Positions 15,976 to 20,272 are shown, counted from the first letter of the stretch. The stretch is DNA of 64,000 nucleotides from Pseudacidobacterium ailaaui (GCF_000688455.1 NZ_JIAL01000001.1:837001-901000); one strand, 5' to 3'. Notes: generated by a model from the letters alone, not told the origin. Program-made: numbers and translations.

Positions 15976-16638
15976 TCAATACATTTGGGCCATCATTTCA
16001 TTTCCGACCGCTTCTGCCGCCTCGGCCAGCATTTTGTGGTGGATGATAAAGAGGGCCAGCTCCAGACGGTCTGAAACACCTGTCTTGTCGTAGATGCTCC
16101 GCAGATAGTTTTTGATGACCTGCTCGCTTGTTCCCAGTCTGAGGGCAATCTCTTTGTTTTTGCAGCCCTGCACGATGAGGGCAACGATCTTCATCTCCTT
16201 GGGGGTCAAACGGTCCCGAACACGCGCCCCGACCTCATCCTCATTCTGATGCCGCACCATCACATCGAGCGCATGCTGTAAATATGCTTCTCCGGTGGCC
16301 ACTTTTCGGACACACTCCATGAGGACCGAACCGCTGACCGAACGGTAAAGGATGCCCTGTACCCCCTGTTCCAACCAAGGGCGCGGTGATTCCTGCACCT
16401 CAAGGACCACGATGGTACGGCAGCCTGAGCGCTGACAGCGGTCCATCAGTTGTGGCACGTCTAACTTCAAAGTAGAAGTGAAAATGAGCACTGAGTTACG
16501 AAAGGCATCCAGCGCATGATAGAGGCGTTCAGCGTCCTGGCACTGGGCGATGATGCGGAAATCATCCTCCATGGCCAGGATTTTTGCAGTGCCGGCGCGA
16601 AAGACCGCCTGATTGTCAGCAAGAATGATCTTAAACAT
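15976..16638 (-). CDS. NarL/LuxR-type regulator with a modified receiver
   Basis: 220 residues with an N-terminal receiver-like domain (about 1-125) and a C-terminal LuxR helix-turn-helix (LTPKEMKIVALIVQGCKNKE, TSEQVIKNYLRSIYDKTGVS). The first acidic residue survives (IILADNQAVFRAG), but the phosphoacceptor Asp is absent: beta-3 reads SVLIFTSTLKL. The beta-5 Lys also appears replaced (GILYRSVSG). It is therefore probably not phosphorylated in the normal way. It is convergent with pruA and divergent from the redox two-component pair; its targets are unknown. Confidence 0.85.
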   Translation of the reverse strand: MFKIILADNQAVFRAGTAKILAMEDDFRIIAQCQDAERLYHALDAFRNSVLIFTSTLKLDVPQLMDRCQRSGCRTIVVLEVQESPRPWLEQGVQGILYRSVSGSVLMECVRKVATGEAYLQHALDVMVRHQNEDEVGARVRDRLTPKEMKIVALIVQGCKNKEIALRLGTSEQVIKNYLRSIYDKTGVSDRLELALFIIHHKMLAEAAEAVGNEMMAQMY

Positions 16639-17163
16639 AGCGAGCGTGCTTTTCCCCCGATAACCGCTCTGCGGTTTTTATCATTACCGCAGGTTAAAGA
16701 CAAATTGTATGCAACGCTGAATACCTTTCAGGTCGCATCCGCAAGACAGATCAAACACTTCCATTGGCATCCCGAAATTGCTGCATGGAGGAGCAAATCC
16801 CAGATGCCGAACTTACTAAAGTACAGATTGATGTCTGGTAAGTGAACATAGGTTACGCAAAAATCCTGTTTTGGGAAAGAGTTTTCCATAGTTATTTCAT
16901 AGTCTCTTTCGTTATCTGGATTTTCTTTGATTTTTCTATATTTCTACCTATCTTCCTGAAGGTTAGGACTTACTTTTGCTAGACGGAGAATATAGGGTAA
17001 CTCTGATTATCGTAAATAAGTAATCTATAGTGATTACTTATGTTCAATTTTTATGGTTACTTCATGCCATGGTGCTCCCGGGCTGCCACCCTTTTTTTCT
17101 TCCGGAGGCCCCGCTCCTGCTGCACTTGGGAATTCTTCGTCGCTCCCCTTACACTGGTAGCGC
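16639..17163. other. AT-rich intergenic region between two divergent regulators
   Basis: 525 bp with no supportable gene. Roughly 16850-17060 is much richer in A+T than the surroundings. The region must carry the promoters of the minus-strand regulator and of the plus-strand receiver-reductase gene. A perfect 10-bp palindrome at 17016-17041 stands out and is listed separately. Confidence 0.6.
17016..17041. promoter_or_regulatory. Palindromic candidate operator
   Basis: ATAAGTAATC (17016-17025) and GATTACTTAT (17032-17041) are perfect inverted repeats separated by TATAGT. The element lies 123 bp upstream of the ATG at 17164 in an A+T-rich tract. Symmetry and spacing fit a homodimer binding site. 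A cruciform or hairpin role is also possible. No cognate regulator is proven. Confidence 0.5.
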
Positions 17164-18816
17164 ATGGCAAAGCCAGTCATTCTCGCGGTCGATGATGACA
17201 TCAGTGTGCTGGAAGCTGTAGTCCAGGACCTGCGGCGGCAGTACGCAGCGCAGTACCGTATCCTGCGTGCGGGCTCCGGGCAGGCTGCTTTGGACACCTG
17301 CACCCAGTTAAAGCAGCGGGGAGACGCGGTGGCGCTCTTTCTTTCCGACCAACGCATGCCCGGAATGAGCGGCGTGGAGTTTCTCGAAAAAGCGCAGGCC
17401 ATTTACCCCGATGCCAGACGTGCCCTGCTCACCGCCTATGCGGACACTGAGGCGGCCATCAAAGCCATCAATACGGCAAAAATTAACTACTACCTCACCA
17501 AGCCCTGGGACCCTCCGGAGGAGAAGCTTTATCCGGTCCTGGATGATCTGCTGGAAAACTGGAGCGCGGGCTATAAGCCTCCCTTTGAAGGGCTGCGCGT
17601 GGTAGGTCCGCGCTGGTCGGCGCGAGACCACGAAGTGCGTGACTTCCTCTCCCGCAACCAGGTCCCGTATGTCTGGCTGGACCCCGAACAGCACGACGAA
17701 GCCGTCCGGCTGCTGGAGCAGTATCAGATTGGGGACGGGCGTCTGCCCGCGGTGCTGTTTCCGGATGGATCTTCGCTGGTCCAGCCGACCCGTACCGAGC
17801 TGGCGGCCCGGGTGGGCCTCAGGACCCAGGCCGAAAAGGACTTCTATGACGTGGCGATCATCGGTGCTGGCCCTGCCGGGCTGGCCGCCGCTGTCTACGC
17901 CGCTTCTGAGGGGCTGAGGGCCATCGTGATCGAACCCGATGCTCCAGGAGGGCAGGCGGGCAGCAGTTCCCGGATTGAAAACTATCTTGGTTTTCCGTCC
18001 GGACTCAGCGGGGCGGACCTGGCGCGGCGCGCTTATGCCCAGGCCTCGCGGTTTGGCGCGGAATTTCTGACGCAAAGCGCTACTGCGATCCGCACCCAGG
18101 CCCCCTACCATTTCGTGCAATTGGCCGATGGGCGCGAGATTTCCTGCCACATTGTTCTGGTCGCCACCGGCGTGGCCTACCGGAAACTGAATATCCCTGG
18201 GATCGAAAAATTCACCGGGGCCGGGGTCTATTACGGGGCCGCCCTGGCGGAGGCCCTCTCCTGCCGGGACGAAGAGATATACATCGTAGGCGGGGCGAAC
18301 TCGGCCGGACAGGCCGCCGTGCATTTCGCACGGTATGCCCGCAAGGTGACGATGCTGGTACGGGCAGACTCGCTCGAAAAGAGCATGTCAAAATATTTAA
18401 TCAATCAGATCACTGGCACATCCAATATTGAGGTACTGACCGGCGCTGAGGTGCAGGAAGTTGCGGGGGACGGTCGTCTGGAGTGCCTGAAGGTACGCAA
18501 CCGGCATGGAGAAATGGTCTGCCCGGCAAGCGCCCTGTTTATCTTTATTGGCGCTGAGCCGAAGACAGAATGGCTGCCGGAAAATGTGATGCGGGACCCA
18601 CGGGGTTTTGTGCTTTCAGGCAATGAGCTGAGGATCGAGGGCAAAATGCCAAGAATCTGGAAGGAAGACCGTCCGCCGTTTCTGCTGGAAACCAGCACTC
18701 CGGGGATCTTTGTGGCCGGAGACGTCCGTCACGGGTCCGTCAAGCGGGTGGCCTCTGCCGTTGGAGAAGGCTCTATTTCGGTGCAGTTTATGCACCAGTA
18801 CCTTGCACGTTTTTAG
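17164..18816 (+). CDS. Receiver domain fused to a thioredoxin-reductase-like flavoprotein
   Basis: 550 residues. Residues 1-125 form a canonical receiver: AVDDD near 8-12, phosphoacceptor Asp about 62 (LFLSDQRMPGMSG), Lys in NYYLTKPWD. Residues 140-225 resemble a thioredoxin/glutaredoxin fold without a CxxC. Residues 235-550 form a two-domain FAD/NAD(P)H reductase: DVAIIGAGPAGLAAAVYA for FAD, IYIVGGANSAGQAAVHFA for NAD(P)H, and GIFVAGDVRHGSVKRVAS at the C-terminus. The redox CxxC of true thioredoxin reductase is absent; the region reads FTGAGVYYGAALAEALSC. The output is thus probably enzymatic or redox-sensing rather than DNA binding. The kinase gene starts 8 bp downstream. Confidence 0.9.
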   Translation: MAKPVILAVDDDISVLEAVVQDLRRQYAAQYRILRAGSGQAALDTCTQLKQRGDAVALFLSDQRMPGMSGVEFLEKAQAIYPDARRALLTAYADTEAAIKAINTAKINYYLTKPWDPPEEKLYPVLDDLLENWSAGYKPPFEGLRVVGPRWSARDHEVRDFLSRNQVPYVWLDPEQHDEAVRLLEQYQIGDGRLPAVLFPDGSSLVQPTRTELAARVGLRTQAEKDFYDVAIIGAGPAGLAAAVYAASEGLRAIVIEPDAPGGQAGSSSRIENYLGFPSGLSGADLARRAYAQASRFGAEFLTQSATAIRTQAPYHFVQLADGREISCHIVLVATGVAYRKLNIPGIEKFTGAGVYYGAALAEALSCRDEEIYIVGGANSAGQAAVHFARYARKVTMLVRADSLEKSMSKYLINQITGTSNIEVLTGAEVQEVAGDGRLECLKVRNRHGEMVCPASALFIFIGAEPKTEWLPENVMRDPRGFVLSGNELRIEGKMPRIWKEDRPPFLLETSTPGIFVAGDVRHGSVKRVASAVGEGSISVQFMHQYLARF

Positions 18817-18823
18817 GATTTCG

Positions 18824-20272
18824 ATGTCAGAACCGATGGCCATCGCCCACGTCAGGAAGGTCGCAGTGCAGGAGCTCTATCCTGAACTGAAAAAAATCCC
18901 CACCTTTTCCCAAACCTCCCACCACGACCTGGCTTGTCTCGGTGATTTAGAAATCCTGGAGGTCCCTGCTGATGTCCCGATTCTCCATCCCGGAGATAGT
19001 CCGGATTATTTCTGGATGGTGCTCAGGGGCGGGGTACGGGTCTATAAGACAGAAAAAGACGGCTCGACGATCTTCGTCACCGCGGCCAAAGAGGGCGACA
19101 CTTTTGGCGAAGTCCCCATTCTGGCTGGGACCTCGCGTGTGCATGTCACCGTAGAATCCACGGCGGACTGCACGCTGGCCCGGGTGCCACAGGAGAGGTT
19201 CTGGCGATTGATGGCCACTTGCCCTACGGTGCGGAACATCATCCTTAAGAACATGTCCCGCCGTTTGGAAGCGCATACGGCCCTGACCTTGCACCGGGAA
19301 AAGCTCATCTCTCTGGGCACTCTGGCGGCGGGGTTAATGCATGAGCTGAACAATCCCGGGACCGCCGCCAAACGCGCAGCCTCGCAGCTTAGGGACAACA
19401 TGACCCGGCTTCAGGAAATCAGTCTGCGGATGACCCGCACTCGGCTCAGTGAGGAACAGATCCTGTGCTTGCATCAATTGCTGGCTGAGGCCTTCGCGGC
19501 GCAAAAAAAGCCCCAGGCCATGAGTTCTCTGGATGAGGCCGATGCCCAGGAGGCGCTGGCCGAATGGCTGGAAGGCATCGGCGTTACGAATGCCTGGAAA
19601 CTTGCGCCTACCCTGGTGGCCGCAGGATGGACCCAGCAGGACATCGAATGCACCCATCATGCATTTCCTCCTGAGATCCTTTCCGACGCATTGAACTGGC
19701 TTGAAGCCGTCATTTCCAACATCCAACTCGTAGGCACCATCGAAGAAAGCATCACCCGGGTCACGGATCTGGTCATGGCGGTCAAAAAATACGCCTACGA
19801 AGACAAAAACAAAGAGCACAAGCTGGACATTCACGACACACTCCGCAGCACGCTTACCATCCTCGGCCACAAATTCCGCCATAAACAGATAGCCATCGAA
19901 AAGCAGTTCTCGCCTGATGTGCCCGTCCTGACGACCTGTGGGACCGGAATCAGCCAAGTCTGGACAAACCTGCTAGACAATGCCATTGATGCCTCGCCGG
20001 AGGGCGGAAAAATCACCATTCGGACCTGGACAGAGGGCAAGTGGGTCTGTGTTGGGATCGCAGACCGGGGACCCGGCATTCCTCCGGAACACCGCGACAA
20101 GGTCTTTGAGCCTTTCTTCACAACAAAGCCTGTGGGTGTGGGCACCGGGCTAGGACTGGACATCGCTCATCGTGTAGTGACCGGACACTACAATGGCCAG
20201 ATTGGCTTTACGACGGAGGCGGGAAAAACAGAGTTTATCGTCAAGCTGCCGATAGAAAAAGCCGCCTTGTAG
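18824..20272 (+). CDS. Cyclic-nucleotide-binding-domain histidine kinase
   Basis: 482 residues, no membrane segment. Residues about 25-145 form a Crp-like cNMP-binding fold (LEVPADVPILHPGDSPDYFW, EGDTFGEVPILAG). The phosphoacceptor helix follows (ISLGTLAAGLMHELNNP), then a helical spacer and an HATPase domain with N box NLLDNAIDASPEGG, G1 ADRGPGIP and GVGTGLGLDIAHRVV. It is probably the partner kinase of the receiver-reductase, with which it forms an operon (7 nt between the genes). The input signal could be a nucleotide or another ligand. trpC follows within about 70 bp, so read-through is possible. Confidence 0.9.
   Translation: MSEPMAIAHVRKVAVQELYPELKKIPTFSQTSHHDLACLGDLEILEVPADVPILHPGDSPDYFWMVLRGGVRVYKTEKDGSTIFVTAAKEGDTFGEVPILAGTSRVHVTVESTADCTLARVPQERFWRLMATCPTVRNIILKNMSRRLEAHTALTLHREKLISLGTLAAGLMHELNNPGTAAKRAASQLRDNMTRLQEISLRMTRTRLSEEQILCLHQLLAEAFAAQKKPQAMSSLDEADAQEALAEWLEGIGVTNAWKLAPTLVAAGWTQQDIECTHHAFPPEILSDALNWLEAVISNIQLVGTIEESITRVTDLVMAVKKYAYEDKNKEHKLDIHDTLRSTLTILGHKFRHKQIAIEKQFSPDVPVLTTCGTGISQVWTNLLDNAIDASPEGGKITIRTWTEGKWVCVGIADRGPGIPPEHRDKVFEPFFTTKPVGVGTGLGLDIAHRVVTGHYNGQIGFTTEAGKTEFIVKLPIEKAAL

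Follow-up and report, generated by a model that had tools for sequence, protein, structure and literature searches.

A soluble histidine kinase and its probable partner, a response regulator whose thioredoxin reductase-like flavin domain lacks the redox cysteines, in Pseudacidobacterium ailaaui

In a 64,000-nucleotide stretch of the complete 3.69 Mb genome of Pseudacidobacterium ailaaui (GCF_000688455.1, NZ_JIAL01000001.1:837001-901000; hereafter the window, in which all plain coordinates are positions) we analyzed two adjacent genes encoding a response regulator with a thioredoxin reductase (TrxR)-like flavin domain and a soluble histidine kinase (Table 1). The original prediction for this DNA had placed the pair at 16981-20272; both genes and their order stand, but not the start, which takes in intergenic DNA (16981-17163) because the regulator begins at 17164, the first possible start in frame. 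The regulator stop and the kinase ATG (18824) are 7 nt apart; a longer open reading frame (ORF) for the kinase, running from a TTG at 18710, was mechanical and we took the ATG as the start. Full-length homologs (49–88% identity) rule out a chance ORF or a wrong frame, the nearest loci being those of an Acidobacteriaceae metagenome-assembled genome (88%) and Acidipila rosea (77%). Pfam searches identified Response_reg (residues 6-118, 3.5e-14) and Pyr_redox_2 (residues 228-536, 3.4e-37) in the regulator, and HATPase_c (7.2e-25) and cNMP_binding (2.7e-17) in the kinase.

The N-terminal receiver (REC) domain had been described as canonical, with an Asp near residue 62 and a Lys near 117; the first is D62, whereas the Lys is in fact K113. 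With its acidic pocket, phosphoacceptor Asp, Thr and Lys (D10/D11/D12, D62, T90 and K113, each kept in at least 95% of 77 orthologs) the protein is a two-component response regulator. Its neighbor is likewise a histidine kinase by its H-box His, its N and G boxes and the fold of its dimerization and histidine phosphotransfer (DHp) and catalytic and ATP-binding (CA) domains: H173 is found in 80/80 family kinases, and N386, D414/G416/G418 and G440/G444 are conserved. The AlphaFold2 model of the kinase (mean predicted local distance difference test (pLDDT) 88.4, predicted template modeling score (pTM) 0.63) has a cyclic nucleotide monophosphate (cNMP)-fold domain, a long H173-bearing helix, a helical insert and a standard CA domain, the last superposing on ThkA with Z 23.1. 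Among 79 loci with a full-length REC-TrxR-like gene, a kinase is directly adjacent in 75 (70 downstream and five upstream of the regulator), and two further loci (L081, L096) have kinase fragments only, truncated at a contig end or broken across frames. Kinase and regulator are also paired in plasmid records of Deinococcus, Caballeronia, Streptomyces, Gloeothece and Tsukamurella, and the partner kinases of six sampled bacterial groups score over the Pfam cut-off for cNMP_binding; on one Nostoc plasmid the nearby kinase bears a receiver and not a cNMP domain. Linkage across phyla and intact catalytic residues support the proposal that the two form a two-component pair, in which the kinase would pass its phosphate to D62.

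A survey in Acidobacteriota, suggested with the original prediction, found the full-length regulator to be patchy in that phylum (~39/297 genomes, and 17 genomes among 61 relatives) yet to extend far outside it, to Cyanobacteriota, Deinococcota, Burkholderiales, Actinomycetota and others. It occurs on plasmid records from Nostoc, Gloeothece, Deinococcus, Caballeronia, Paraburkholderia, Streptomyces, Nocardia, Tsukamurella and Nonomuraea.

Behind the receiver lies an enzyme-like and not a DNA-binding output, as had been predicted, namely a TrxR-fold domain for flavin adenine dinucleotide (FAD) and NAD(P)H. In HMMER alignments the CATC of solved TrxRs stands opposite G358-A359-A360-L361 of the regulator, and superposing its AlphaFold2 model on known structures likewise reveals the loss of the CxxC. 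All 77 REC orthologs have Gly in column 358, no Cys occurs at 358 or 361 in a family set of 57 aligned sequences, and inspection of all cysteine columns in the orthologs found no alternative CxxC pair. The proposed check, alignment with characterized TrxR and ferredoxin-NADP+ reductase (FNR)-type proteins, bears out the cysteine loss, with GAAL at the CATC site, and, as the CxxC is lost across the whole family, thioredoxin is not expected to be reduced in the usual way. At this site SSCATCDGFFF stands in the genome's own true TrxR and in those of 12 relatives; a CATC-type TrxR is present in the host and in 2/2 checked relatives that have the REC-TrxR protein. Features for thioredoxin docking have also changed: the FF is replaced by E363-A364, and at the GR/KG motif (both motifs as defined in PMC9025218) the regulator has GAG, with R in 24/77 orthologs. 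Its score against the TrxR equivalog model TIGR01292 is 211 bits, below the cut-off of 343.

Between REC and the flavin domain lies what had been called a thioredoxin-like segment; mycoredoxin/glutaredoxin-like is the closer label given its matches to TIGR02200 (8.3e-6 for the regulator and 6.9e-12 for a Nostoc relative, both under the curated cut-off). Here S152 and D155 occupy the mycoredoxin CxxC positions; across the aligned set the first of these is never Cys, the second is Cys in a few members, and P195, at the cis-Pro position, is invariant.

The same cysteine-less module also occurs in sister proteins that have a cNMP domain where REC stands. In a quick tree of flavin domains the REC and cNMP forms were grouped apart from 13 true TrxRs with support of 100, and the input domain has switched at least once inside this CxxC-less group; we regard this sister group as the strongest hint that the cysteine-less flavoprotein is the output and that its input is exchangeable. 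The one semi-conserved cysteine of the module, C367, is retained in 13/15 sister proteins as well as in 68/77 orthologs, and in Rhodococcus trxA adjoins the cNMP form, both of which would suit a disulfide or mixed-thiol reductase working by another route, either through C367 alone or through external thioredoxin or mycoredoxin cysteines docking on the flavin. We nevertheless consider such a reductase improbable, since F, T, Y or I replaces C367 in otherwise intact members and C367, nine residues past the first CxxC position, aligns just ahead of the NAD(P)H-binding strand and not to the CxxC. As a catalytic Cys it was rejected because it is not invariant.

The cofactor-binding residues, by contrast with the dithiol, have been kept. 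The FAD motif GAGPAG (GxGxxG), the NAD(P)H-domain motif GGANSA (GxGxxA, with Ala here for its second Gly, in the third place), R400, S409, Y411, D520 and R528 show little or no variation in the family, and a working flavin and nicotinamide site therefore seems to be selected for while dithiol chemistry is not. The AlphaFold2 model of the regulator, for which 48 family sequences served as input with those of plasmid records left out (mean pLDDT 89.5, pTM 0.73, weakest around residues 91-120, a stretch that takes in the REC switch face), has a flavin domain that superposes best (VIA-align) on TrxRs in the flavin-reducing arrangement, namely 3r9u (Z 36.5, root-mean-square deviation (rmsd) 1.5), 5mh4 (Z 36.2, rmsd 1.7) and the TrxR-thioredoxin complex 1f6m (Z 34.7, rmsd 2.3), whereas the flavin-oxidizing form 5mjk fits worse (Z 30.0, rmsd 7.5). 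The fold-search matches were taken up by the TrxR and CA domains. The flavin-reducing fit agrees with, and does not prove, a protein specialized in NAD(P)H-to-FAD transfer.

From these comparisons we propose that the kinase probably controls a TrxR-like flavin enzyme devoid of the thioredoxin-reducing cysteines, the best reading being that an NAD(P)H-oxidizing or -sensing flavoprotein is switched by phosphate on D62. The soluble kinase, with its cNMP-fold sensor, would autophosphorylate at H173 and phosphorylate D62 of the regulator; the phosphorylation state of REC would then gate an FAD/NAD(P)H unit no longer capable of dithiol chemistry, in which NAD(P)H would reduce FAD in the flavin-reducing arrangement and electrons would pass not to thioredoxin but to a protein or small-molecule acceptor that is no dithiol. 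The cysteine-less mycoredoxin-like domain, placed as is the Trx-fold domain of AhpF, may serve for docking or coupling of REC and the flavin domain, and in the sister proteins the fused cNMP-fold domain would gate the same module. Belief and doubt are evenly balanced for this explanation as a whole, in which phosphorylation gates an NAD(P)H flavoprotein whose acceptor is not a dithiol, and which is the best we can offer. Several observations weigh against it: two Cytophagales loci (L078, L079) have no adjacent kinase; no conserved electron-acceptor gene adjoins the pair; the modeled conformation is weak evidence on the working state; and the NADPH-specific HRRxxxR is kept only in part (R400), so that the sequence makes no call between NADH and NADPH.

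The lack of a linked acceptor gene, the loss of the catalytic dithiol and the swapping of the module between signaling inputs would also fit a redox sensor, in which the FAD/NAD(P)H domain would respond to the redox state of NAD(P)H/NAD(P)+ or of the flavin and in turn influence either REC phosphorylation or the phosphatase activity of the kinase, with turnover incidental. We think this unlikely, as the protein has no further output domain to relay the sensed state, and the strictly conserved cofactor-site residues fit sensor and enzyme alike. REC domains commonly act by dimerization and the TrxR fold is dimeric, which would favor a scaffold, with phosphorylation altering only dimerization or partner binding and FAD being structural; invariant NAD(P)H-site residues would then be needless, and we rate this possibility as more than improbable, a poor candidate. 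Returning to the gated flavoprotein, a wider extrapolation that we hold quite tentatively, with doubt the stronger side, is that this is a widespread module in which a cysteine-free mycoredoxin-like/TrxR-like relay has passed from thiol reduction to a switchable NAD(P)H flavoprotein, with phosphorylation or a fused cNMP-fold sensor as interchangeable inputs.

As for what the kinase might sense, it had been predicted to be soluble with a cNMP-binding domain; solubility and fold both hold (no transmembrane-like stretch was seen, the top 19-residue Kyte-Doolittle mean being 1.31), but the phosphate-binding Arg is not conserved in the kinase family. The phosphate-binding cassette of the kinase has E96 and R105 with one extra residue following R105, and the Arg is variable, the strict pattern occurring in 5/80 kinases and 2/11 cNMP-TrxR-like proteins. 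We looked for a class III adenylate cyclase as a source of ligand and found no class III cyclase in the genome (other cyclase classes were not searched). Given the variable Arg and the lack of a class III cyclase we do not call the kinase a cyclic-nucleotide sensor, and consider cyclic-nucleotide binding by its cNMP fold doubtful. The same genome encodes a second cNMP-fold histidine kinase of this family, an unlinked orphan adjoining ilvC (L138:964-2409, minus strand); this kinase, and the two that flank the regulator in Caballeronia, indicate that the regulator may have more than one input kinase.

Table 1. Features of the regulator-kinase locus, in window coordinates.
Feature	Position	Strand	Evidence
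Response regulator gene, 550 aa: REC, Cys-less mycoredoxin-like, Cys-less TrxR-fold	17164..18816	+	ORF, Pfam, AlphaFold2
REC domain, residues 1-136	17164..17571	+	Pfam; column conservation in 77 orthologs
Phosphoacceptor D62	17347-17349	+	
K113	17500-17502	+	
Mycoredoxin/glutaredoxin-like domain, residues ~142-222	17587..17829	+	TIGR02200 matches, column counts, model secondary structure
TrxR-fold FAD/NAD(P)H domain, residues 224-550	17833..18813	+	phmmer to solved TrxRs, E 5.5e-45; structure superposition
Site of TrxR redox CxxC, here GAAL (G358-L361)	18235..18246	+	HMMER, family alignment
C367, sole semi-conserved cysteine (68/77 orthologs)	18262..18264	+	Ortholog columns
Gene for the soluble histidine kinase (482 aa), probable partner of the regulator	18824..20272	+	Pfam, adjacency in 75/79 loci
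cNMP-fold domain, residues ~9-132	18848..19219	+	Pfam, AlphaFold2 model
DHp helices (residues 134-204, 283-325) and intervening helical insert	19223..19798	+	H173 conservation, AlphaFold2
Phospho-acceptor H173	19340-19342	+	
Helical insert between DHp helices, residues ~205-282, common to the kinase family	19436-19669	+	AlphaFold2
ATP-binding CA domain; N386, D414/G416/G418, G440/G444 conserved	19817..20257	+	Pfam, alignment, model
NarL-type regulator, degenerate receiver	15976-16638	-	Alignment to NarL

The divergent gene beside the pair encodes a NarL-type regulator whose receiver has no phosphoacceptor Asp (F53 aligns to D59 of NarL, and an invariant R99 replaces the Lys). Retention of this gene in 41/42 close loci could suggest that the pair acts on transcription through it; however, it does not accompany the pair in other phyla, is unlinked in other genomes having the REC-TrxR protein, and is present in 18/20 Acidobacteriaceae genomes without that protein, so its adjacency reflects inherited gene order and not a dedicated partnership. 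We rejected this core Acidobacteriaceae gene as a dedicated partner and rate it as the output only at the very edge of plausibility. It is preceded by an L-glutamate gamma-semialdehyde dehydrogenase gene, and the genes downstream of the kinase read by inspection as tryptophan biosynthesis. About 125 bp ahead of the regulator start is a perfect palindrome, ATAAGTAATC-TATAGT-GATTACTTAT (17015-17040), which was rejected as a conserved operator since the regions upstream of the orthologs do not contain it; a number of these regions (L042, L043, L044, L075) have a different palindrome, TGTGACGTACGTCAC. In Actinomycetota a UBP-type zinc-finger gene adjoins the pair or the cNMP form (L122:9110-9463, L124:9137-9487, L127:4280-4546), being the third gene in Streptomyces and Tsukamurella and lying beside the cNMP form in Rhodococcus; it was rejected as a system component, its counterpart in this genome being sited elsewhere, beside mnmG (L139). 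The Rhodococcus plasmid region (L127:872-6239) has cbpM, clpB, trxA and the zinc-finger gene followed by the cNMP-TrxR-like gene, an order that suggests a protein-stress context for the latter.

Response regulators that directly control a redox flavoenzyme have barely been studied, and a single tested pair would tell whether bacteria gate NAD(P)H/flavin chemistry by phosphorylation and put right how a large family is annotated. Its REC members are annotated as FAD-dependent oxidoreductases and the sister group as "cyclic nucleotide-binding domain-containing thioredoxin-disulfide reductase," a label very likely mistaken in view of the missing catalytic cysteines. In comparison with TrxB, the regulator has the same fold and order of FAD and NAD(P)H domains, with ~30% identity and Z up to 36.5, but it has neither the CxxC nor the FF, keeps HRRxxxR only partially, and carries fused REC and mycoredoxin-like domains. 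AhpF also has a Trx-fold domain N-terminal to a TrxR-like domain and has redox cysteines in both parts, whereas neither part of the regulator has them, and the regulator scores 155 bits against the AhpF model TIGR03140 (cut-off 503). TrxR-fold enzymes without a CxxC are known as FNR-type enzymes (PMC8564101), and their electrons pass to non-thioredoxin acceptors; the regulator shares the CxxC-less TrxR fold but matches them more weakly in sequence (E ~1e-10 to 1e-12) and structure (8c16, Z 29.2, rmsd 2.8), is nearer to TrxR than to FNR (YumC type) in both, and has a fused signaling domain. We found no description of the systematic cysteine loss, the mycoredoxin-like insert or the REC/cNMP swap in the open-licence literature, nor a functional study of the REC form, in keeping with the earlier remark that this is a known arrangement with no described function. 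The cNMP-domain TrxR-like proteins share the cysteine-less module and tree group of the regulator, align over the mycoredoxin-like region in most cases and, having a cNMP domain where the regulator has REC, possess no phosphoacceptor and need no partner kinase. The same domain arrangement as that of the regulator is mentioned, as REC-thioredoxin reductase regulators (a "Mycobacterium-like combination"), in a census (PMC5847659), in passages that do not take up cysteine loss, the middle domain, kinase pairing or mechanism.

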